Below, piece after piece: positions 1-25,651 of a stretch of DNA of 32,863 nucleotides; position 1 is the first letter of the stretch; each line of letters opens with the position of its first letter. The notes beneath the pieces were generated by a model that saw nothing but the letters and a program-made list of their open reading frames with translations, had not been told where the DNA came from and did no database searches. Source of the DNA: a virus; the IMG/VR virus record IMGVR_UViG_3300009068_000104, positions 1 to 32,863 of that record, one strand, 5' to 3'. The position numbers and the translations under genes are program-made.

Positions 1-104
1 TATTTCGGTTGCAACTCAGTATTGGCCGTGCCAGCTGGACAGAGGACCCATTGACTGTGCGCTGCCCAGGAACACTGGGATTTTCCATAACACCATACTG
101 AATA
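1..104. other. gene-free left edge
   Basis: I see no convincing gene here. One plus frame is open from base 2 to about 256, but it has no start signal or recognisable composition and is set by the inverted repeats beside it. CCCAG (65-69) and CTGGG (75-79) form a 5-bp hairpin with a 5-base loop, followed on the plus strand by ATTTTCC. It could be a weak terminator. Confidence 0.5.
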
Positions 105-209
105 GATCGTTTCTTCTAAAAGAGCTATCTTGCATACCCCATACGAGATATCTTGTAGCTGCCACTAACGATGTGGCAGCATCGCATAGCTCTTTTAGAA
201 GAAACGATC
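105..209. repeat. nested inverted repeat A (24-bp outer arms)
   Basis: The outer arms at 105-128 and 186-209 are perfect 24-base reverse complements. Inside them a second perfect hairpin, GCTGCCAC (158-165) with GTGGCAGC (173-180), closes a 7-base loop, TAACGAT on the plus strand. That loop is the exact complement of ATCGTTA at 252-258, in the internal loop of the neighbouring repeat B. A transcript of either strand could fold into two long hairpins joined by a loop-loop contact. There is no T-tract for a standard terminator. A structured RNA, a transcript-end protector or a replication/packaging site are all possible. Confidence 0.8.
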
Positions 210-215
210 ATCATA

Positions 216-283
216 TCACGAAGGTGTATCTTATGCGTATCTGTGCCACAGATCGTTAGTCTTATAAAGATACACCTTCGTGA
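216..283. repeat. nested inverted repeat B (17-bp outer arms)
   Basis: TCACGAAGGTGTATCTT (216-232) and its perfect reverse complement (267-283) form the outer stem. Inside, ATCTGTG (239-245) and CACAGAT (247-253) form a second stem. It lies three bases after the stop codon of the 51-aa gene at 287-442, so it would be the 3' end of that mRNA. CTAACGAT/ATCGTTAG complementarity (165-172 with 252-259) links it to repeat A. Confidence 0.8.
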
Positions 284-286
284 AAC

Positions 287-442
287 TCAATTTACTCGTT
301 CAATTATCGGCTTACCAACTAGCTTGTACTTTTCAGCCAGCTTATTTATATAGGCGAAAGCGGCCTTCATTGAAGCAAAAAACTCTTCTCCCTCTGCGAG
401 AAAACCATCTTTAGCCTTGTAGTCGTAAGTTACCTTGAACAT
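287..442 (-). CDS. small hypothetical protein, 51 aa
   Basis: I do not recognise a family. The ATG at 442 is preceded by a strong Shine-Dalgarno GAGGAGAG, and a consensus promoter lies just upstream (467-495). A longer open frame to 541 would have to be read across that promoter, so the short start (MFKVTYDYKA) is preferred. The product is mixed-charge with many aromatics and no membrane segment. It is the last gene before the paired hairpins at 105-283. TATAAATA on the minus strand at 350-343 resembles a T4 late promoter but sits inside the reading frame and may be chance. Confidence 0.7.
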   Translation of the reverse strand: MFKVTYDYKAKDGFLAEGEEFFASMKAAFAYINKLAEKYKLVGKPIIERVN

Positions 443-466
443 CTTTCTCTCCTCATCGTTATAGGT

Positions 467-495
467 AGTATATATGATTCGGTATTCGGTGTCAA
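467..495 (-). promoter_or_regulatory. sigma-70-type promoter for the 51-aa gene
   Basis: On the minus strand TTGACA (495-490) is followed by a 17-base spacer and TATACT (472-467). The predicted start of transcription, about 460, leaves a short leader that ends in the GAGGAGAG ribosome site. Confidence 0.75.
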
Positions 496-570
496 GTCTT
501 TTATTAGTGACAGTTCCGATATCACCCATCGTCACTGACAACCGTTGAGCAGAGCCCGCGGACTCTTTGT

Positions 571-588
571 ATCAGGTTGGACCCTGAT
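571..588. repeat. small hairpin downstream of tRNA-Met
   Basis: ATCAGG (571-576) and CCTGAT (583-588) form a 6-bp stem just after the tRNA pair on the minus transcript, followed by a near-palindrome around CCGCGG. It may mark the 3' end or a processing point of the tRNA transcript. There is no U-tract. Confidence 0.4.
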
Positions 589-600
589 GCTGTTTGCCTC

Positions 601-675
601 TGGTGCGCGAGGTAGGACTCGAACCCACACTCAGGCCGTTATGAGCGACCGGCTTCACCTTTAAGCTACTCGCGC
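601..675 (-). tRNA. tRNA-Met (anticodon CAU)
   Basis: The minus strand folds as a complete cloverleaf: a 7-bp acceptor GCGCGAG/CTCGCGC, a GCTT/AAGC D-stem, an anticodon stem GGTCG/CGGCC with loop CTCATAA (anticodon CAT), and a T-arm with the TTCGAGT loop. Discriminator A and an encoded CCA end (601-603) follow. A paired G1:C72 makes it elongator-type Met, or Ile if the wobble C is modified to lysidine; sequence alone does not decide. It starts five bases after the neighbouring tRNA-Leu. Confidence 0.93.
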
Positions 676-15286: not shown

Positions 15287-15694
15287 TTACTTAGCCTTCT
15301 TGCCCTTCTTGGCCTTCTTGACTATCTCTTTGATCTCTTCTTTAACTTCTTTAATTTCCTCGACAACCACCTCGATCTTTTCTTCGACCTTGGCAGCTTC
15401 TATCTTGACTTCTTCAACAACTGGCTCAACAATAGCTTCGATCTTTGCTTCAGCTTCCATCGCCTTAACAAAGGCAGCCTCTGTCGTAGCATCGATATCA
15501 GCCTTGATATCTTCTCTTGCCTTATCGATAACTTCTTCGGCCTTAGCTTCAGTCTTGGCCACAATCTCTTCAACAGCCTTGACAGTCTCGGCCAAACCTT
15601 CAGGGTTTGTCATATCTTCCGTTGCAGGCCTCATCGCCTTTAAGACGTAATACCCAACGACGCCAAGTATCAATACACCAACAATAAATTCCAT
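15287..15694 (-). CDS. membrane-anchored Ala/Glu/Lys-rich helical protein
   Basis: Residues 3-19 (FIVGVLILGVVGYYVLK) form one membrane span. The remaining 115 residues are a single long charged helix with repeated EE/KK/AKAE patterns and a basic KKAKKGKKAK end. The expected picture is an inner-membrane anchor holding a long cytoplasmic rod. AAAGGAG precedes the ATG at 15694. No family is identified; low-complexity similarity to histone-like or apolipoprotein-like sequences would be misleading. Confidence 0.75.
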   Translation of the reverse strand: MEFIVGVLILGVVGYYVLKAMRPATEDMTNPEGLAETVKAVEEIVAKTEAKAEEVIDKAREDIKADIDATTEAAFVKAMEAEAKIEAIVEPVVEEVKIEAAKVEEKIEVVVEEIKEVKEEIKEIVKKAKKGKKAK

Positions 15695-15706
15695 TTCATT
15701 TCTCCT

Positions 15707-15940
15707 TTAGATCAATCTACTCAAACCATATAACTCAGGATAGATGCGTTCAAGTACAATGAGAGCATCTTTCTTTCTGCCGTTCCTGAAGTGCCATACA
15801 ACGTCTTCGATTTCTTGATCGAGATGGTCTTCTGACTTCTTCGTGATAAGATAACCACGACCTTCAAGTTCTTCGATAAGATCATCATCTTCGAAACTGT
15901 CAAGATCCTCTTCATCAACCCAGACTTCTTTGTACGGCAT
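15707..15940 (-). CDS. acidic hypothetical protein, 77 aa
   Basis: The start MPYKEVWVDEEDLDSFEDDD is strongly acidic, followed by a helical part with WHFRNGRKKDALIVLERIYP. GGAG precedes the ATG. It lies directly downstream of the sugar block, with a promoter-like sequence in the end of the epimerase gene. No family is recognised. Confidence 0.7.
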   Translation of the reverse strand: MPYKEVWVDEEDLDSFEDDDLIEELEGRGYLITKKSEDHLDQEIEDVVWHFRNGRKKDALIVLERIYPELYGLSRLI

Positions 15941-15944
15941 CCGT

Positions 15945-16892
15945 TTAGCTCCTCATTGACTTTATGATGGACACCATATCATGCTCTGGCTCAAATGTCA
16001 ATACCTCTTTCATACGAGTAACATCAGAAACCAAACGATCTACATCACCAGGTCTACGATCAAGGAACTCAAGGTCGAACTTTCGTCTTTCGATCTTAGA
16101 TATGGTGTCAATTACTTCCAGTACGGAATAACCACGCCCTGTTCCTATGTTGCAAACAATTCCTTTATCGTTCTTTTCCATATACTCATAGGTCTTGATG
16201 TGTGCCTTACAGATATCCACTACATGTATATAGTCGCGAACGGCCGTGCCATCTGGTGTATCGTAATCGTTGCCGTAGATTTTTGCCTCGTTTGACTCCA
16301 TAAGGATAGGAATCAGATGCGTCTCTGGATCATGCTCTTCGTATAAGTTAGCCTCTACATTACGGCCTGCTGCATTGAAGTATCGAAGAATGCCAACCTT
16401 CATCTTCTCATCTTTTGAAATATCAAGGAGTACGTCTTCTACCATGCTTTTGGTCTTCGCATAGATGCTTTTTGGATTCTTAGTCATATCTTCAGATAGT
16501 GGTACTTTACTAGGTCCATACACAGCACAAGTACTGGAGAAAATGAAATGCTTGGCTCTATGAAGCATCATATTTATCAATCTCAGAGAACCACCAACAT
16601 TGTTCCAGTAATACTTTCTCACCCACACCTCACCCTCTTCAACAGAAGATAGCGCAGCAAAATGAAATACACAATCGAAACCGATGTTATAATCCATCAA
16701 CATAGAAACATTGCTCATCGATAAGTCTATGGTATAGAAACGATCATATAGATGTTCAAGATGATCTTTTTGATCTTTATCAAGCCCAAAGATTATGCAA
16801 TCAGGATAGGCTTGGCGTAGTTCGTAGCACATATGGGAACCAATGTATCCATTGGCCCCCGTCACAAGAAATGTTTTAGGCATATGGCTCAT
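15945..16892 (-). CDS. UDP-glucose 4-epimerase-like (GalE family SDR)
   Basis: An NAD-dependent nucleotide-sugar epimerase. The Rossmann motif TGANGYIGSH (11-20), SSTCAVYG (119-126), catalytic Y144-x3-K148 and RYFNAAGRN are family marks, and the late RRPGDVDRLVSD is typical of GalE. At 315 aa it is a little short of the usual 330-340. The start is set at 16892, after AAGGA; ATG at 16883 is possible. It likely interconverts UDP-Glc and UDP-Gal (or the N-acetyl forms) to feed the glycosyltransferases upstream. It is the last gene of the sugar block. Confidence 0.88.
   Translation of the reverse strand: MSHMPKTFLVTGANGYIGSHMCYELRQAYPDCIIFGLDKDQKDHLEHLYDRFYTIDLSMSNVSMLMDYNIGFDCVFHFAALSSVEEGEVWVRKYYWNNVGGSLRLINMMLHRAKHFIFSSTCAVYGPSKVPLSEDMTKNPKSIYAKTKSMVEDVLLDISKDEKMKVGILRYFNAAGRNVEANLYEEHDPETHLIPILMESNEAKIYGNDYDTPDGTAVRDYIHVVDICKAHIKTYEYMEKNDKGIVCNIGTGRGYSVLEVIDTISKIERRKFDLEFLDRRPGDVDRLVSDVTRMKEVLTFEPEHDMVSIIKSMRS
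15973..16001 (-). promoter_or_regulatory. promoter-like sequence in the epimerase 3' end
   Basis: TTGACA (16001-15996), 17 bases, TATGGT (15978-15973) on the minus strand, just upstream of the 77-aa and membrane-anchored genes. The -10 is weak. Confidence 0.4.
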
Positions 16893-17676
16893 ACTTCCTT
16901 CTAGGCATGAATTCACAAGCTAAGTTAGATTGTGGCGGTGGTTGTTCTGCATTCTTCAGAGAAAGAATCTTAGCATCATCCTTACAGCAAATCCACATCT
17001 CATCACGAAGACGCCAAGTAAGTGTCTGCATGATAGGATGCCTTTGCAACTCACCTTTCCACCAGTCATCATTACGAATATCTGGAATGGTGCGGATGTA
17101 TTCAGACTTTGACCACCAATAGTTACCACTGAAATGCTTCATAGGCCAAGGTGCATAGTTAGCCGAGACTACATCGTGGTTCTCAAGTAATCTATTACAC
17201 TCCTGCCATCTTTCAACCACCGCCCACTCAAGAAACTTCCTCCAGTAAAAGTAGTTCTTGAACTCATTGAACTTACCTGCACGGAGATGCCTCTCATATG
17301 AGGTGACACCCTTGGCGTGCATATACAAGAAGTGAGCATCTTCACGGAGAGCATGGTCATAAATTAGTTGAAGTGTGGCATACTCGGTGATTGGGCGAGT
17401 GTTTCTGCCATATAGATCGGAGTCGAGAGAATGAAGATCATTGTCACCTTTGAAACGGTCTTCAAACTCTACGACTTCGATCTTGTTGCTCAAAGAACTT
17501 GCGAGGCCTTTTGCTAGAGCAACATTTGCTGGTTTACCTACAACTACAAGATAGAACTTCTCGGCCGCATCAATAAGCCCGTGGTCTTCACACATCTTAT
17601 ATTGCTCAAGAAGATAGTTAGACCATGCAGCATGTTCATCAGGGAGATAGAGATGATAGTAGATATACTTTTTCAT
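16876..17676 (-). CDS. putative glycosyltransferase, 266 aa
   Basis: The order FLYMHAKGVTSYERH, YFYWRKFLEWAVVERWQECNR and HFSGNYWWSKSEYIRTIPDI resembles phage and bacterial sugar transferases in capsule-type loci, with YMHAKGVT in the nucleotide-sugar site and SGNYWW in the acceptor region. No classical DxD is obvious, so the call is by resemblance and context. It overlaps the upstream methyltransferase (ATGA) and the downstream epimerase. Confidence 0.65.
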   Translation of the reverse strand: MKKYIYYHLYLPDEHAAWSNYLLEQYKMCEDHGLIDAAEKFYLVVVGKPANVALAKGLASSLSNKIEVVEFEDRFKGDNDLHSLDSDLYGRNTRPITEYATLQLIYDHALREDAHFLYMHAKGVTSYERHLRAGKFNEFKNYFYWRKFLEWAVVERWQECNRLLENHDVVSANYAPWPMKHFSGNYWWSKSEYIRTIPDIRNDDWWKGELQRHPIMQTLTWRLRDEMWICCKDDAKILSLKNAEQPPPQSNLACEFMPRRKYEPYA

Positions 17677-18896
17677 TCTCTAATCTCCACTTTGGGGAAG
17701 TAAGTGACATAACGATCAAACTCACTATGCTTGCTTGAACTGCGGGCAGTCTTAATCTTCTTCACAATCTCATCATAGAAATTCCATGCAAGCGGAACAA
17801 AACAGACGGTATCATCAAGCTCTTTCAACTTCTCGGATGAATAGATTGGAATGCTAGAGCCTGGTGTGAAACGACCTTGCTTCAACGGATTGTCATCGAT
17901 AATGAAATCGAGTTTGAGGCTAGAGTAGTTGAGCAATGTCATACCTTTTGCAGGTGCACCATAGCCAATACCATACCAACCAACTTCATTGCTGGTCATA
18001 CGACTAACTACTTCGACCAACTCTTTGACAACCGCATTACAGTAGTTGGCATACTTCACATAGGTCTCAGGCTGATATAGACCATTTGCAGTTTCATCTT
18101 CAAGCCTCTGTTCGATCAGACTACCTTTCAGGTCTTTCTTTGAGACGACGAAGATATAACTTGTGCCATGAATGGGCATAGTCGTTACGTCGATAAGATA
18201 TAAACCAGCACGTTCACAAAGCTTCTTCATTGACAATGTATTGAAGAAAGAGATGTGTTCATGATAGATGGTATCAAACTCATTATTCACAATCATATTA
18301 GCTTGTGAAGTCTGAATGAATAACAAACTATCCTCGTGCATCACCTTTGAGGCCGTCTTCAAGAAAGAAAGAGGATCGGCTGTATGTGCAAAGACATTCT
18401 GTGCAGTTATAACATCGAAACAGAATACTTTCTCGGCAAACTCATCATTAAAGTATTCACACGCCACCGAATGATTCTTATTTGATAGTTCATGAAGGTT
18501 CTTTGCAGGATCAACACCATAGGTATCATAACCCAGAATCTTGAAGTAGTCGAGCTGAGTACCATCATTGCAACCAACATCAAGCACAGTGTCCGATTCA
18601 GGTGCCATTTGATTGACATACCATGCGAAGTCTTCGAAATGCTTATGCCCTGTTTGAGTTGTGCCACTCACATAAAGATAATCTTCAAACATGAGTGAAG
18701 GATCAACAGCATGAGTAAGTTGTACATGATAACACTCTTCGCAGCGATTGATAGCCAGAGGAAACTCCGGCTGCCAATCATCTTTGTTTAGCTTATATGA
18801 ATTAGCCAGAGGCTGCCTCTTCAAATCAAGAACAAGCTTTAACTTGTTCGAACCACATGCAACACACTCGGTAAGCTTAGTGCAATCCGCTTTCAT
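17673..18896 (-). CDS. sugar C-methyltransferase-like protein
   Basis: Three parts typical of NDP-sugar C-methyltransferases (TylC3/NovU type) are visible. The first is an N-terminal zinc site, C11VAC14 with C52EEC55. The second is a SAM-binding core, VLDVGCNDGTQ (104-114), followed by YHEHISFFN. The third is a C-terminal domain with WYGIGYGAPAKGMTLLNY. The 407-aa length is normal. These enzymes methylate a 4-keto sugar, which fits the 4,6-dehydratase-like gene directly upstream. The start at 18896 has GGAG six bases before it; longer starts lack one. Confidence 0.88.
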   Translation of the reverse strand: MKADCTKLTECVACGSNKLKLVLDLKRQPLANSYKLNKDDWQPEFPLAINRCEECYHVQLTHAVDPSLMFEDYLYVSGTTQTGHKHFEDFAWYVNQMAPESDTVLDVGCNDGTQLDYFKILGYDTYGVDPAKNLHELSNKNHSVACEYFNDEFAEKVFCFDVITAQNVFAHTADPLSFLKTASKVMHEDSLLFIQTSQANMIVNNEFDTIYHEHISFFNTLSMKKLCERAGLYLIDVTTMPIHGTSYIFVVSKKDLKGSLIEQRLEDETANGLYQPETYVKYANYCNAVVKELVEVVSRMTSNEVGWYGIGYGAPAKGMTLLNYSSLKLDFIIDDNPLKQGRFTPGSSIPIYSSEKLKELDDTVCFVPLAWNFYDEIVKKIKTARSSSKHSEFDRYVTYFPKVEIRE

Positions 18897-18907
18897 AGTA
18901 TTCTCCA

Positions 18908-19939
18908 TTAGGCCAGCAACCAATGATTATGTTGCAGTGTCCAGTTCACAACTTCTTCAATGCGATCACGCAGACGCACACGGGGTTCCCAACCAAGGCT
19001 CTTCATATATTCACCACTCAGGCTATAACGAAGATCATGGCCAGGGCGAGACTTGTTAAAGTCAACGAGCTGATAGTTGAGATCCTTATTCATAACCTTA
19101 GAGATGATCTGAGCCAGCTCAAGGTTGTCAATCTCTTCATTGCCAACTACGTTGAACTTAGGGCACTTCGCACCACCATAATCAGGCATACTAAACTCGG
19201 ACTCATCGAGCTTTAGAATGTGCATAAGAGCATCAGCAACATCAGACACATGAACATAGAAACGAGAACCAGGTTGCCCTGTCACGATATCAGCATGAAC
19301 AGTAATCATCTCTCCGTCACGGATATTCTTGATGCACTTCGGCACATACTTCTCAGGATGCTGACGCTGCCCAAACACATTCATCGTATGGCAGATGTAG
19401 ACAGGCAGATTGTAAGTATTATGGAATGAAACAGCCAACTCTTCGCCGCCTGCCTTTGTAGCAGAGTAAGGATTGGTTGAGTTATATCGGGCGCGTTCAT
19501 CATAGAGAACACCCTTTGGTGCAGGACCAAATACTTCATCAGTAGAGAAGTAAACGAAACGCTCAAGGTTCTTACACTGACGAGCATAGTTGAGGATGTT
19601 ACAAGTACCCACAACATTGTCCTGCACAAACTCAAGAGGTGCAAGAATAGCACGGTCAACGTGAGACCCTGCGGCCAAATGCAACACATAATGACAATCG
19701 CCAATGTTGTTGAATGTGAGTGGATTGATTTCAGCCTTCAAATCATGGAAAACAAATCGAACACGCTTTCGCGTTTCAGCATCTTTTGTTTCCATGAGTT
19801 CGTGAAGACGATTGAGATTACCTGAGAAGTCAAGACGGTCAATCGTTACGATATCCCAGTCTGTACGTTCGAGCAACATTTCGATGACATGATGAGCGAT
19901 AAAACCGGCACCGCCCGTAACCAACACTTTCTTTTTCAT
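18908..19939 (-). CDS. dTDP-glucose 4,6-dehydratase-like enzyme
   Basis: An extended short-chain dehydrogenase. The nucleotide motif TGGAGFIAHH (8-17) has Ala in place of the last Gly. The catalytic triad region STDEVFG (132-138) carries the Thr-Asp-Glu typical of RmlB, and Y158SATK162 is the active Tyr/Lys. HTMNVFGQRQHPEKYVPKCI is also RmlB-like. It likely makes a 4-keto-6-deoxy sugar nucleotide. GAGGTAATT precedes the ATG. It feeds the adjacent C-methyltransferase; the exact nucleotide (dTDP, UDP, GDP or CDP) is uncertain. Confidence 0.87.
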   Translation of the reverse strand: MKKKVLVTGGAGFIAHHVIEMLLERTDWDIVTIDRLDFSGNLNRLHELMETKDAETRKRVRFVFHDLKAEINPLTFNNIGDCHYVLHLAAGSHVDRAILAPLEFVQDNVVGTCNILNYARQCKNLERFVYFSTDEVFGPAPKGVLYDERARYNSTNPYSATKAGGEELAVSFHNTYNLPVYICHTMNVFGQRQHPEKYVPKCIKNIRDGEMITVHADIVTGQPGSRFYVHVSDVADALMHILKLDESEFSMPDYGGAKCPKFNVVGNEEIDNLELAQIISKVMNKDLNYQLVDFNKSRPGHDLRYSLSGEYMKSLGWEPRVRLRDRIEEVVNWTLQHNHWLLA

Positions 19940-19941
19940 AA

Positions 19942-20688
19942 TTACCTCGCAAGTTCGAATGCTTTAAGAGTCACTTGAGAATCGACGAATTTCCAATTCT
20001 CTCTCTTATACTTATCACGCATGATCCGAGGGTACACCTCATAGATCATATGGTTCATTTCTTTCATAGCTTCATTCTGGTCATAGTATGAAGGTTTAAT
20101 GTGGTTCGGCGGATGATAGATAGATGCCGCATGGACTACATTAGCTGTACACTGTAGCACATCACAGAACACTTTGTCAATACCCCAACCAACAGTAAAG
20201 TCGAGTTCTTTGAAAAAATCTATGGCCTTGTGAAACATATCTTGACGGAAGAAGGTGCTACCCATTTCAACAAAGTTAGTTTCAGAACACACCCAAGCCT
20301 TGTTCTGTTTCAGGCAATCATAGATGATACCTGAACCTTCCATCATAGATAGCTGCCACAGTTTCGAGTCGATTGTCTTTGCAATATGAAGCCCAAGATT
20401 GAAAGACTGGATATCGGTGATCTGGTCATCATCGACACAACCAATATAGTCATACTTGGTAACATCGAAGAATTCAGGAATCTGCTTGATGATTTGCCAC
20501 TTATGCCCTTTCATTCGAAGGATATGATCGTATGAATTTGGCTCTGGTTCAAAGTCATTGTAGACTACGCAAAGCAACTCATAGTTACGCTCTCTCTTAT
20601 TGGTGAACCGCCAATGATTCTCCGCATCAAAGCGAGGATCAAACGTCATTGGAATACCAGTAGGAGTAATAATTAGATTCTTAGCCAT
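19942..20688 (-). CDS. putative glycosyltransferase (VDDDQ motif)
   Basis: The segment YDYIGCVDDDQITDI near residues 79-93 gives a DxD-type metal site as in GT-A glycosyltransferases. VGWGIDKVFCDVL further on looks like the acceptor/aspartate region seen in DUF707-type relatives. The 248-aa length fits a single GT domain without membrane segments. The start overlaps the GT10 gene by eight bases. The sugar and acceptor are unknown. Confidence 0.7.
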   Translation of the reverse strand: MAKNLIITPTGIPMTFDPRFDAENHWRFTNKRERNYELLCVVYNDFEPEPNSYDHILRMKGHKWQIIKQIPEFFDVTKYDYIGCVDDDQITDIQSFNLGLHIAKTIDSKLWQLSMMEGSGIIYDCLKQNKAWVCSETNFVEMGSTFFRQDMFHKAIDFFKELDFTVGWGIDKVFCDVLQCTANVVHAASIYHPPNHIKPSYYDQNEAMKEMNHMIYEVYPRIMRDKYKRENWKFVDSQVTLKAFELAR

Positions 20689-21568
20689 TCAAAACACCCT
20701 TATAGACATTCTTATCAAACCAATTCAGAAAGCGGTCCTTGTCAAAGAACTTGTTGACTTTCTGATAATCGGCAAACATGGGTTGCATATACATCTCTTC
20801 ATACAAATCAGGATGCTCATCAATCTCTTTGATAGCAGCAAAGAACGCATCATCGTCCTGATAATCATGCCAGTTGAGAAAGGCCTTCGTATTGAAATCG
20901 ACTTCAATAGTTGGGCTTCCCCAATAGATAGGAATGGTTTTAGCACATAGAGCATCATATAGCTTTTCTGTGGCGTAACCAGGATAGCTAGAGTTTTCGA
21001 AGCAGAGATTGAATCTGTGTTTGTTGAGGAATTGTAGTTTAGCTTGGACAGACTCTTCACCACGCGGTAAGATATAGCCTGTGTTATTATATAGAGGGCC
21101 TGCGGAAGCTACTGGCTTATACTCATTCAGTCTATGAAACCATTTATTACGCATAGCACATGCTTCATTCTTCACCACGAATGAGCAGAAGTCACTTGGT
21201 TGAAGAAGGTCGGCTGCGCTTCTATTAATAGTGCTTGTATTAGGTACATCTCTAAAGTGGTTATCATAGTCGTAGATGACATAGAGAGGTAACCGATAGT
21301 TCTGCCCGTCAAACTCAAAGTGGTCAATCGTGATTGAGTGATGACAACGATAATCCCACGGTCGAGCATTTTCACCCGTGTAGAATACTTTGATACAGTT
21401 CTTCGCATCATAGTTGATATTATCACCACCGAAGTTTTTGTCACCAAAGATTAGATAGTCTGGATTGTTGTCATCACGAACAATCTCATAACGCTCAGAC
21501 AAAACCTTGGTGAAGAAATTTTCAATACCACCGAACGTATCGGTGAAACCCAATCTCAATAACTTCAT
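20681..21568 (-). CDS. GT10 family fucosyltransferase-like enzyme
   Basis: The hallmark alpha-1,3-fucosyltransferase motif is present: CFENSSYPGYATEKLYDA (189-206) followed by TIPIYWGSP (211-219). Family members transfer L-fucose, or a similar L-sugar, from the GDP-sugar. The N-terminal acceptor domain has VFYTGENARPWDYRCHHSIT. At 295 aa it has no membrane anchor, as in bacterial enzymes. The start is the ATG at 21568 overlapping the epimerase stop; longer in-frame starts lie in that gene. The neighbouring GDP-mannose 3,5-epimerase could provide GDP-L-galactose as donor. Confidence 0.9.
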   Translation of the reverse strand: MKLLRLGFTDTFGGIENFFTKVLSERYEIVRDDNNPDYLIFGDKNFGGDNINYDAKNCIKVFYTGENARPWDYRCHHSITIDHFEFDGQNYRLPLYVIYDYDNHFRDVPNTSTINRSAADLLQPSDFCSFVVKNEACAMRNKWFHRLNEYKPVASAGPLYNNTGYILPRGEESVQAKLQFLNKHRFNLCFENSSYPGYATEKLYDALCAKTIPIYWGSPTIEVDFNTKAFLNWHDYQDDDAFFAAIKEIDEHPDLYEEMYMQPMFADYQKVNKFFDKDRFLNWFDKNVYKGVLNG

Positions 21569-22602
21569 ATCATTGATTCTTTCTTGACAACTTGATCTTC
21601 GATCCATTCATAAGTTGGAATCAAACCTTTGAAGAGTGTGTACTTTGGTTTCCAACCAAGCTTCTCTTCGATGAGACGATTATCTGAGTTTCGCCCGCGG
21701 ACGCCCGTGGGGCCAGATATATGATTGACCTTTGGATCTTTAAGTGCAATGAAAGATACCAGGTTTACAAGCTCATTGATTGTCACCATCTCTTCAGAGC
21801 CGATATTAACAGGGCCCATGAAGTCTGACTCCATGTGCATACGAACCGCATCAATGCAATCATCAATGTACAGGAATGAACGTGTCTGTTCACCATCACC
21901 CCAGATATCAACAACACCGTTGCTCTGAATTACTTTTCGGCACATAGCAGCAGGTGCTTTCTCTTTACCACCATCCCATGTACCTAAGGGACCATAGATG
22001 TTATGGAACCGAGCGATGCGTACAGGAATATTGTAATTGCGATTATAGGCAAGATATAAGCGTTCACTGAATAACTTCTCCCATCCATATTCACTATCAG
22101 GGTTTGCAGGGTATGCACTAGACTCTTCGCAGTTTGGATTCTCTGGATCTAACTGATTATGTTCCGGATACATGCAAGCAGACGACGAGTAAAAGACCTT
22201 TGTGATATTTGTCTTGTGTCGATGATTGATATCTTTCACAGCATCAAGCACATTCAAGTTAATACTTGCTGAGTTGTGCATAACATCTGCATCATGTTCA
22301 CCTGTGAAGATGTAACCTGCACCACCCATATCAGCAGCAAACTGATAGATTTCATCAAAAGGCTTATCGAACTGCATTGCCCACGTTTGATGTGGATCGC
22401 GACGAGAGCCGGCAAAACCAATCAACTCCCTCACTTCTCTCGCATCACGCAAGTCACGCAAGACGAAATGGTCAGCCTGAGACCTATCATACTCTGGATA
22501 CTTTAAGTCAACGCCACGAACCCAATAGCCTTCGGCCTTGAGACGCTTGACCATATGATTGCCGATAAATCCACCGGCTCCTAATACAAGTGCTGTTTTC
22601 AT
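21565..22602 (-). CDS. GDP-mannose 3,5-epimerase-like enzyme
   Basis: The motif LGAGGFIGNH (7-16), then QFAADMGGAGYIFTGEHDAD (87-106), SSSACMYPE with the family's catalytic Cys at about 143, Y172GWEK176 and WDGGKEKAPAAMCRK (209-223) are specific to GDP-mannose 3,5-epimerase. That enzyme converts GDP-D-mannose to GDP-L-galactose or L-gulose. The family is best known from plants and some bacteria. The 345-aa length is normal. GAGGTAATC precedes the ATG. It pairs logically with the GT10 gene just downstream. Confidence 0.9.
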   Translation of the reverse strand: MKTALVLGAGGFIGNHMVKRLKAEGYWVRGVDLKYPEYDRSQADHFVLRDLRDAREVRELIGFAGSRRDPHQTWAMQFDKPFDEIYQFAADMGGAGYIFTGEHDADVMHNSASINLNVLDAVKDINHRHKTNITKVFYSSSACMYPEHNQLDPENPNCEESSAYPANPDSEYGWEKLFSERLYLAYNRNYNIPVRIARFHNIYGPLGTWDGGKEKAPAAMCRKVIQSNGVVDIWGDGEQTRSFLYIDDCIDAVRMHMESDFMGPVNIGSEEMVTINELVNLVSFIALKDPKVNHISGPTGVRGRNSDNRLIEEKLGWKPKYTLFKGLIPTYEWIEDQVVKKESMI

Positions 22603-22604
22603 GA

Positions 22605-23144
22605 TTACCTCTTAGTCCAGAACCAAATTGCTCTATTGGATACCTGAATAGGTGTTCCAATCTTACTCTGCCTGCGAAACTCGGTAAGAGCGGTCTTTAC
22701 CGTTACTGTCTCATGCCCATTACCGCAAAAGATTCCGCCGCTTGGAGTAATGTCGTATGATAGCATAAGATTCTCAACAGTGCAAGTCATATCATTCACA
22801 CAGACAACATCTGGCAAACTTTCTTTACTCTTCAAGCTTTCAATATCATTCTTCATCACCAGCTTACCTTTTAGGTTCTTGGTGTTCTTAGCAAAGACGG
22901 CCTTAATCAAATCGGCATCATCACTCTCATACTTGTTGATGACATAAACTTTTTCGATCTTATCACCAGTAGTCTCAAGCATATCCACAATCGATTCACC
23001 CTTGAGGTCACCGATAACAGCTACAAAGACCTTATCTTTCCTGATTCGCTTGATGTATGGGACAATGCCTCTTGAGATAAAGTTCTGATGAGGCCACATT
23101 CCGAAAATCTTTAGATTCTCGATATCAAAGTATTCGGGGTTCAT
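22605..23144 (-). CDS. methyltransferase-like protein, 179 aa
   Basis: Residues 36-75 look like the first part of a Rossmann fold (VFVAVIGDLKGESIVDML). The C-terminal SGGIFCGNGHETVTVKTALT followed by EFRRQ resembles the last strands of class I methyltransferases found in sugar loci. The glycine-rich SAM motif is not canonical, so the call is tentative. It overlaps the upstream glycosyltransferase (ATGA), with AAGG eight bases before the start. Confidence 0.5.
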   Translation of the reverse strand: MNPEYFDIENLKIFGMWPHQNFISRGIVPYIKRIRKDKVFVAVIGDLKGESIVDMLETTGDKIEKVYVINKYESDDADLIKAVFAKNTKNLKGKLVMKNDIESLKSKESLPDVVCVNDMTCTVENLMLSYDITPSGGIFCGNGHETVTVKTALTEFRRQSKIGTPIQVSNRAIWFWTKR

Positions 23145-24019
23145 GCGTAAATCCTTTCAATCTGTTCTTTCAAACCATCAACACGGTCGTACTGATGGAC
23201 AATAAAGTATGGTTCACCAGCAGGAGTCTTTACAACACCATCTTCAATGAGTGGCTGCACATCCTCATAGATGGCTTCATACTTCGAAGGGTCTTGCTTG
23301 AACATCATACCAAGATCACCCTTACCAGACTTCACAGCACCAAGAGTTGTACCAAGCTGAATAGCCCAACCATCTTCATTGGTCATAAAGTCGGTATCAA
23401 ACTTAAAAGGTGCTGATGTGATGATGAAGTTAAAGACGGCCTGATCGACAATCTGAATTGGTCGATTCACGCTGAGATGGAAGATGAAAGAGAGAAGGCC
23501 CTTGATGGTTTGAAATTCGCCACCCAAGACGCCGACATTATAGATGAGGTTCTCTTTGAGAATGTTGTGAAAGTATGGGCCAAAAGTATCAAGCAGATTC
23601 TTATTACCCCAAGGTTCATTCTTATATCTCATACCTTCAGACGAGGCATAGAGAAAGTGAAACCTATCTACAAACCAATCAGATGGATTCTTCTGAAAGA
23701 CTGCATCACGAACATCTGTAGTGATTACGTTGTTGTACTCTTCTTTGGTTGTCTCAAGGAAGTTCCAGAGATAGAAGAAACGCTCAACATGAGGAGCATT
23801 GTTATTCGGTGCAACCATATCACCATCAGCATTTAATCGCCCATAGAGGCTGAGAATGATACCTTCACTCGTCAGCTTGTCTATAGTGGCCTTCTTCATA
23901 TTTGTGCCGACGATAGCAATATCACCTTCGAAGCCACTACGCTTGATAGAGTTTACCCAAAACTTCAACTGATCCCAGTCATAGTTAGATGCACCACCGA
24001 TTACCAGATCCTTAGTCAT
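23141..24019 (-). CDS. putative glycosyltransferase (TDVRD motif)
   Basis: VIGGASNYDWDQLKFWVNSI at the start and NNVITTDVRDAVFQKNPSDW near residues 95-115 resemble GT-A-type transferases recurrent in marine phage sugar loci, with TDVRD as the metal-binding acidic site. IVDQAVFNFII later is a typical acceptor-side helix. The ATG at 24019 is chosen because GGAG lies eight bases before it. The donor is unknown. Confidence 0.7.
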   Translation of the reverse strand: MTKDLVIGGASNYDWDQLKFWVNSIKRSGFEGDIAIVGTNMKKATIDKLTSEGIILSLYGRLNADGDMVAPNNNAPHVERFFYLWNFLETTKEEYNNVITTDVRDAVFQKNPSDWFVDRFHFLYASSEGMRYKNEPWGNKNLLDTFGPYFHNILKENLIYNVGVLGGEFQTIKGLLSFIFHLSVNRPIQIVDQAVFNFIITSAPFKFDTDFMTNEDGWAIQLGTTLGAVKSGKGDLGMMFKQDPSKYEAIYEDVQPLIEDGVVKTPAGEPYFIVHQYDRVDGLKEQIERIYA

Positions 24020-24021
24020 TA

Positions 24022-24744
24022 TCAATTCTCCTTCACGAAAAAGTCATCCCAGCGCGAAATCTCCATAAACTTCCGCTTGTATCCATTAGCAGTCATAAGC
24101 TCGAACAGTTTATCACGCATGGTGAAATTATGCTCAACGCTGATACATCTTACTTCATACCTATTATTCTTCTGAAAGAACGCATTGAGAATGCCATACT
24201 CACTACCTTCAGTGTCAACAGACATGAAGTCGATAACCTCTGGCGCACCATATTCATCAAGCATATCGTAAAGTGAGATTGTTTTGACCGAGATTGTCTT
24301 AGCTTTCTCACGCTCGGCCTTAAACTCATCATCACGACCAAAACCCTTGATGGTAGCTAAGTCAGCAGCATCGGTCATAAGAAACTCAAGTGTCTCACCA
24401 CTCACACTGAACACACACTTATCTGTGATATTACAGGAACGATTCTTACGCAACTCTTCATGCCAGATTGGATTAGGTTCAGCAAGAATACCTGACCATC
24501 CGTATTTCTGTTCAAGTAGATAGCTGTTGCTACTAGTCTTACCATCAGTAGCACCAAATTCAACAAAGTACTTCATGGTATAGTTGTTTCTGGTTTCCCA
24601 CAAAGCCCATACGTCTTGATAGCTCTGTGCTTCACTCTCATGTGCATGTTGTAAACAGAAGCCAATGAACTGAAACAACTCATCATTACGAAGTTGTTCG
24701 TTTGATGCTTCTTTGATTGAGTAAATTAGTTTACCAAGATCCAT
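24022..24744 (-). CDS. FkbM family methyltransferase
   Basis: The SAM-binding FVEFGATDGKTSSNSYLLE (60-78), ILAEPNP, and the family signature VIDFMSVDTEGSEYGIL (near 176-192) support an FkbM-type O-methyltransferase. Such enzymes methylate sugar hydroxyls in polysaccharides and antibiotics. The start ATG at 24744 is preceded by AAAGG at seven bases. The 240-aa length is usual. Its position among glycosyltransferases suggests it caps or decorates the same glycan. Confidence 0.87.
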   Translation of the reverse strand: MDLGKLIYSIKEASNEQLRNDELFQFIGFCLQHAHESEAQSYQDVWALWETRNNYTMKYFVEFGATDGKTSSNSYLLEQKYGWSGILAEPNPIWHEELRKNRSCNITDKCVFSVSGETLEFLMTDAADLATIKGFGRDDEFKAEREKAKTISVKTISLYDMLDEYGAPEVIDFMSVDTEGSEYGILNAFFQKNNRYEVRCISVEHNFTMRDKLFELMTANGYKRKFMEISRWDDFFVKEN

Positions 24745-24746
24745 AA

Positions 24747-25502
24747 TCAAGCCTTTAGCCAGGGAAATTTATCACCATAGATTGCAGCCATACTCTCATT
24801 TCCCTTTTCAAAGAAGTTGGCTGTTACTGAGTTTGGATTGCCATCAAGACGATAACAGAGTGAGTGCTTACCACTTGTATCCCACTTGCAGTGGTCTTTG
24901 ACGTTATAGAAGAAGTTGCGATCACCACCCCAACCATGATGCCAAAACTGTGACACCTTGATTAGAAACTCACGGCGAAATGCAAATGAGGATGTGTCGA
25001 TGAGAAAGCTTTCTTCATTACCATGTGTGAAGTAGATAGGCCATTTACCAAGGCTCTCACAGTTGTCATCACAAAGATAGTTCTTATTCTCATCATAGAT
25101 TTGACGAAGAGAATATGCGAAGTCATTCTGTTCAAGAACCTTGACAAGGCTCTCAACATGATCTGGTGCATACCAGTTGTCTTCATCGAGGAAGAAGATA
25201 TAGTCAGAGTTGATTAGATGTGGATAGGCCGCATAGATACGATGCCCGTAGAAGCCATCACCAACTTTACCTGTATTGTATGGTGATGTTGTCAGAGTTA
25301 CATGATTTAGCAAATCATCATCGTATGCGAAGTTATGCAAGAATTTTTTTTGATGTTCTGGACCATCAACGACAATTAGATGGTCGATATGACCATACGT
25401 TTGATTCTTGATGCTCAAAATGGCATCAAGAACCTTAGGTGATCCGATTGTGGGGGTAATGACCGTTACAGTCTTAGGGGAAGTTACGAAGTTGTATTTC
25501 AT
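24747..25502 (-). CDS. family 2 glycosyltransferase
   Basis: VTVITPTIGSPKVLDAILSI (near 12-31), HLIVVDG and SDYIFFLDEDNWYAPDHVES (about 99-118) are the standard GT-A, GT2 order, with DED as the metal-binding site. HHGWGGDRNFFYNV is a probable acceptor/catalytic-base region. At 251 aa it is a single domain. The ATG at 25502 overlaps the stop of the micro-gene upstream (TGATG), with AAGG eight bases ahead. It is the first full gene of the sugar block. Confidence 0.85.
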   Translation of the reverse strand: MKYNFVTSPKTVTVITPTIGSPKVLDAILSIKNQTYGHIDHLIVVDGPEHQKKFLHNFAYDDDLLNHVTLTTSPYNTGKVGDGFYGHRIYAAYPHLINSDYIFFLDEDNWYAPDHVESLVKVLEQNDFAYSLRQIYDENKNYLCDDNCESLGKWPIYFTHGNEESFLIDTSSFAFRREFLIKVSQFWHHGWGGDRNFFYNVKDHCKWDTSGKHSLCYRLDGNPNSVTANFFEKGNESMAAIYGDKFPWLKA

Positions 25503-25651
25503 CACCAATGCCTTATCACGCCAGCTATAATAAACATGTTCGTTAGTATATAGCTGAGAATTATGACCGTTCGGATGATAGCGACTCTATCAGCCTCAAT
25601 GTTGTTCTTACCGTTCTTTTCACCTAGAGCCTTAGCCCACAGTCTCCACAT
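25502..25651 (-). CDS. 49-aa membrane micro-protein
   Basis: The ATG at 25651 (MWRLWAKALGEKNGKNN) follows GGAG by about 11 bases. Residues 23-46 (AIIRTVIILSYILTNMFIIA) form one membrane span. A longer open frame to 25702 would run through the hairpin at 25678-25699 and is rejected. The stop overlaps the first sugar-block gene (TGATG). The function is unknown; it might anchor or couple the sugar operon. Confidence 0.6.
   Translation of the reverse strand: MWRLWAKALGEKNGKNNIEADRVAIIRTVIILSYILTNMFIIAGVIRHW

Follow-up and report, generated by a model that had tools for sequence, protein, structure and literature searches.

What is encoded by the two long palindromes that lie side by side, in a gene-free stretch, near the start of virus record IMGVR_UViG_3300009068_000104? 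The window that we analyzed is the entire record (32,863 bases) and is probably a fragment of a larger genome. It carries replication genes of the T4-like kind (DNA polymerase, helicase, UvsX and clamp loader), and among isolate records the polymerases of cyanophages are nearest to its own, at ∼50% identity. A long series of minus-strand ORFs (15945–25508) resembles, on a by-eye reading of the translations, nucleotide-sugar epimerases, glycosyltransferases and methyltransferases. The initial annotation had suggested that the palindromes form a defined RNA fold with a contact between their loops. Our analysis shows that both hairpins are the front end of a larger conserved RNA on the minus strand.

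Two Hairpins on the Minus Strand Beside a tRNA Island

The inverted repeats that drew attention to this locus are present as described, with a perfect 24-bp repeat (105–128/186–209) next to a perfect 17-bp repeat (216–232/267–283), each enclosing a second inner stem. They also lie far beyond chance, as had been argued: when both strands were folded and compared with 200 dinucleotide shuffles, the z scores were −11.9 (plus) and −9.6 (minus), and none of the 200 shuffles folded as well. Read on the minus strand, hairpin A (105–209) has a basal stem, GATCGTTTCTTC/GAAGAAACGATC, that covaries among relatives, and an upper portion, tip A, with two inner hairpins. One of these (158–180, minus strand) presents the loop ATCGTTA and is identical in 15 other viral contigs; the other (134–151, minus strand) pairs AUAUCUC with GGGGUAU. 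Hairpin B (216–283, minus strand) has the 17-bp outer stem, inside which it shares homology with the tips of the L017 and L010 hairpins.

Two natural variants of the 134–151 hairpin, in L011 and L022, change a G-U wobble to a G-C pair, and do so on the minus strand only. Because these variants strengthen pairing on that strand, and because the neighboring gene, promoter and tRNAs all share it, the RNA strand as judged from the sequences is the minus strand. The hairpins lie, as had been noted, just 3′ of a gene that has its own strong promoter: a sigma-70-like promoter (TTGACA-17-TATACT, 495–467, matching 11 of 12 consensus positions) and a small ORF taken from the ORF list (MFKVTYDYKAKDGF..., 51 amino acids, 287–442, minus strand) lie upstream of the RNA. 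L001–L003 are arranged alike and carry relatives of the ORF, for which a PHROG search returned no match. Genes for tRNA-Met (CAT, 601–675), tRNA-Leu (TAA, 681–758) and tRNA-Arg (TCT, 1129–1205) belong to the same island and strand as the RNA. Between tRNA genes, a small acidic protein gene occupies the opposite strand (854–1087, plus) and is followed by a perfect 12-bp hairpin, TGTAAGGGGGAA/TTCCCCCTTACA, at 1094–1124. A simple terminator had been considered a poor explanation for the palindromes, and a scan of the transcribed strand for intrinsic terminators, in which a hairpin is followed by a U-tract, agrees: it reports no U-tract at hairpin A or B.

A Conserved Core Domain Extends Past the Hairpins

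The hairpins had been delimited correctly, but the feature does not end at position 105. Conserved RNA runs on through window positions 1–109 and beyond, and this best-conserved domain, which fell outside the annotated interval, also holds a better supported kissing-loop candidate. The domain is apparent in L002, a stretch reached through a relative of the small ORF, where the gene is followed by tRNAs, these by a hairpin, and the hairpin by a conserved segment; that segment corresponds to window 1–109 on the minus strand. An 18-base string from the core matched 22 viral stretches, and further patterns together with a tip-A string yielded more copies. Covariance model R1 matches the window with 106.5 bits (E 5e-24) over model positions 1–109 of 199, the 3′ half of the domain being lost at the window end.

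The core was found on 35 further contigs (34 from IMG/VR and one from a genome bin), which gives 36 model-matching copies including the window. All carriers are metagenomic records, mostly fragments, and each of the 24 carrier records that were searched whole has exactly one core. Because some cores are identical (L032/L033, L080/L081 and L079/L089), and because L023 and L026 look like halves of one genome split at an assembly end, the number of independent copies is somewhat below 36; pair counts use distinct rows only. Pattern scans also produced chance matches without the fold (L034, L036–L038, L040, L042–L045, L047–L059, L072–L078 and L091–L095), which were rejected. Among isolate phages, a blastn search of INPHARED gave tRNA or chance matches only, and the covariance model, run on four T4-like cyanophages and two other isolate genomes, found no match. 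We found no description of the core RNA in the open-access papers that we searched.

The core spans ∼200 nt and is modeled as a closed multi-branch domain. Helix P1 (20 bp) closes the domain, which contains P2, a 3-bp P3 that encloses P3a/P4 (with P4a) and P5 (with P5a), and P6. The window retains the 5′ strand of P1 (86–106; its 3′ strand lies past the window edge), hairpin P2 (CCCAG/CUGGG, 65–79), which covaries across relatives, and the P3a/P4/P4a hairpin with its palindromic loop (17–57), all on the minus strand. When all 36 copies were aligned by fitting them to the model (alignment A5), 98.2% of cells were paired and 38 of 56 pairs had changed on both sides, compared with 30–49% pairing for slid partners, and none of 500 shuffles reached any of these measures. 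An alignment of 20 sequences built from sequence only gives a similar picture: 97.5% of cells pair, against 32–47% for slid partners, and both sides change in 32 of 60 pairs, four of the 60 belonging to the palindrome described below. The consensus structure itself goes back to the fold of a single sequence, L027. The weakest core helix is P5a (89%), and the P4 pairs, being nearly invariant, are little tested because they offer hardly any variation. Covariation of this extent indicates that the window RNA and its relatives almost certainly constitute a conserved structured RNA, and it strongly supports the original suggestion of a defined structured RNA at the hairpins.

A Self-Complementary Loop as a Candidate Dimer Contact

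Helix P4a closes a loop of 9 nt, which in the window includes the self-complementary sequence CCAGCUGG (31–38, minus strand), a candidate homodimer kissing loop. A palindrome of six or eight bases is kept in 36 of 36 loops, compared with 6% of random 9-mers, and it is kept while its letters change: CTAGCTAG, CCTGCAGG, CCAGCTGG (the window), CTGCAG, CGGCCG and TAGCTA all occur, as does CAGCTG. The loop of L027 is CCUGCAGG, and CUAGCUAG is a natural loop in other cores. Among the 20 sequences of alignment A3, the positions flanking the central GC are T-A in 10, A-T in 9 and G-C in 1, with zero mismatches, and these two positions cannot pair intramolecularly because they are only 2 nt apart. In a tree from which the loop was left out, at least 8 changes fall on the four central letters, and L009/L016 differ from L020 in their palindromes while the cores are identical. 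Such switches may reflect recombination among a few ancestral loops, such that 8 changes need not equal 8 mutations.

Intermolecular pairing would be the simplest reading of a palindrome kept in this manner, and we lean toward the view that two RNA copies pair through the P4 loop as a homodimer. The apical loop of the HIV-1 dimerization initiation site (DIS) holds a palindrome of six bases through which two copies can pair (PMC7357161). The core RNA likewise has a six-base apical-loop palindrome, a likeness that concerns only how the RNAs might work. Unlike HIV-1 DIS, to which it is unrelated, the core RNA has no conserved purines flanking the palindrome in its loop (alignment A4), and its palindrome is often eight bases long.

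The contact proposed in the initial annotation, between the loops of hairpins A and B, finds less support. The loop complement itself is exact (TAACGAT at 166–172 with ATCGTTA at 252–258), and an extended match (164–175/249–260) is 92% complementary. However, the stretch in B is not fully unpaired; in the best fold of B it lies partly in a stem, and unpaired segments of A and B of at least 4 nt have at most 3 complementary bases in common. Nor is the contact supported as the key feature of the RNA, given that the 15 other contigs with tip A show no conserved partner. An exact one occurs only in L083, and L011, L085, L087 and L088 lack any Watson-Crick or G-U partner within 400 nt upstream and 45–187 nt downstream. 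Conversely, the B relatives L010 and L017 exist without A. Despite the exact 7-nt complement in the window, we consider it very improbable that the two hairpins kiss in a defined complex within one molecule.

A Leading Hairpin with Exchangeable Tips

Hairpin A is the window's version of a hairpin, P0, that precedes the core in most relatives. The P0 basal stem covaries (GTTG/CAAC and GATG/CATC among relatives, GATCG/CGATC in the window) and is capped by about a dozen different kinds of tips. Tip A is nearly identical over ∼90 nt across diverged cores and basal stems, and differing tips are found on the near-identical cores of L009, L016, L020 and L025. From these sequence patterns, the P0 tip is very likely swappable between phages.

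P0 is also separable from the core, because tandem P0 pairs occur directly before tRNA-Lys in L084 (about 1892–2127, minus), L086 and L090 (6578–6815, plus), records in which a model search found no core. Since hairpin B is related to the tips of L017 and L010, the window likewise holds two P0-type hairpins in tandem. An extra exchangeable hairpin, GGGGATTC...ACCCCATCGTGGGTGTAACGG, lies upstream of P0 in L010, L019, L021, L022 and L079–L084, and because its 3′ end overlaps the P0 5′ arm, the two may compete. The P0 tip of L016 (9792–9853) has a tRNA-like fold that reaches 26.2 bits with the tRNA model, just short of the gathering score of 29 (E 8e-4), and is uncalled by ARAGORN; a similar-looking tip in L019 gives no match to the tRNA model.

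Position Within tRNA Islands

A downstream tRNA is in reach for 27 copies, and 23 of these end 2–4 nt before it. The other four spacings are 5, 7 and −4 nt, the last reflecting model positions that overlap the tRNA, and 58 nt in L046. For the remaining copies, L032/L033 have no directly downstream tRNA and 7 run off the contig. The core stands behind a tRNA in L002, L008, L013, L023, L032/L033 and L039, mostly without P0. In L002, P0 begins one base after the end of the upstream tRNA, and the other in-island copies touch the 3′ end of theirs or run slightly into it. Because the RNA thus adjoins tRNAs on both sides, the enzymes that process tRNA ends may release it.

A boxA-like motif of the GCTGTTTGACATTG type, which we take to resemble the boxA of ribosomal RNA leaders, lies upstream in 26 of the 29 copies with P0 and is missing in the window, L002 and L046. 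The tRNA islands of L079, L080, L081 and L089 include anticodons TCA and CTA, and TCA occurs also in L020, L027, L084 and L090; these tRNAs, called SeC/Pyl by ARAGORN, are possibly suppressor tRNAs.

Relation to Known Phage RNAs

In cmscan searches (to E 10) of window 1–620, L002, L027 and L008, neither the core nor the hairpins matched any Rfam 15 family, and both GOLLD (RF02032) and ROOL (RF03087) are absent from the results. Matches of microRNA and snoRNA models to the long perfect stems fell far under gathering scores and were discarded. A cryo-EM study of GOLLD, ROOL and OLE describes the first two as phage RNAs from the vicinity of tRNA islands that assemble into cages by way of kissing loops and A-minor contacts (PMC12286853). 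GOLLD has a conserved 3′ part, a variable 5′ part, intermolecular kissing loops and sometimes tRNAs in its linker, and ROOL is an RNA-only multimer with kissing loops that is often near tRNA islands (PMC12286853). The core RNA is likewise a structured phage RNA located in tRNA islands, but it lacks any sequence or structure match to GOLLD and measures ∼200 nt, compared with >800 nt for many GOLLD RNAs; it is also much smaller than ROOL and has different helices. A GOLLD match above the gathering score was found in a single carrier, on the L013 contig (G013:C1:20648–21111, minus), 4.8 kb upstream of the core RNA (15683–15879, same strand) and separate from it. A search of 15 carriers for ROOL, run without a positive control, found none. 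By these comparisons, the core RNA is not a member of the GOLLD or ROOL family, although by analogy it may work like them.

Alternative Explanations and Implications

We assign a probability of roughly 0.6 to the reading that this locus encodes a phage tRNA-island RNA that is released by tRNA processing and pairs through its P4 loop. Comparison of the copies establishes a structured noncoding RNA, conserved within the tRNA islands of phages and read from the window minus strand. tRNA-processing enzymes would free it from the transcript that it shares with the tRNAs, as its ends adjoining tRNAs suggest. Two copies would then join through the self-complementary P4 loop into a homodimer or larger assembly, a step with moderate support from the kept palindrome, such that the RNA probably homodimerizes. 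More speculatively, the product could serve during infection as an RNA-only scaffold, much as GOLLD and ROOL might, and the P0 tip would be its variable displayed part; a scaffold role of this type, proposed by analogy, is our first guess at the function, although we regard it as rather doubtful.

The arrangement of the locus also brings to mind a cis-acting leader of the tRNA operon, in which P0 and the core govern boxA-type antitermination read-through or processing and no free RNA has a role. In most relatives the RNA is indeed the first element past a promoter-like stretch and boxA-like motif, directly before the first tRNA, and a stretch ahead of P0 can base-pair with the P0 5′ arm, making alternative hairpins possible. 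Yet the in-island copies listed above follow a tRNA, mostly without P0, no U-tract follows P0, and a leader would not be expected to keep a loop palindrome, so we judge this reading unlikely. Still less probable is that P0 tips serve as tRNA mimics or decoys, baits for host tRNA-cutting or RNA-sensing defenses, for which the core is a handle. The tRNA-like score of the L016 tip would fit such baits, as would the swapping of tips among near-identical cores and their sharing by diverged cores, but most tips are unlike tRNA, that of L019 included, and several carriers have no P0 at all. Finally, we give next to no credence to the idea that the hairpins are transcription terminators, or mobile elements at the DNA level, with no function as RNA. 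Long perfect palindromes would suit such elements, and tip A barely differs between diverged backgrounds, as for a mobile piece; but the U-tract is missing, the G-U to G-C changes keep pairing on one strand, and the dense covariation of the adjoining core already contradicts this explanation there.

In the boldest reading, which we hold to be somewhat less likely than not, the RNA would belong to a third class of phage tRNA-island RNAs, apart from GOLLD and ROOL, that would self-assemble through a palindromic loop, acquire like-with-like specificity by loop switching and carry an exchangeable displayed tip. GOLLD and ROOL are phage RNAs that build RNA-only cages. A shorter, separate RNA at the same kind of locus, whose self-pairing loop has stayed self-complementary through several changes, would offer a small, tractable model for why such RNAs are kept by phages next to tRNA genes: a core of this size lends itself to transcription and testing, and its natural loop variants would serve as ready-made specificity controls.
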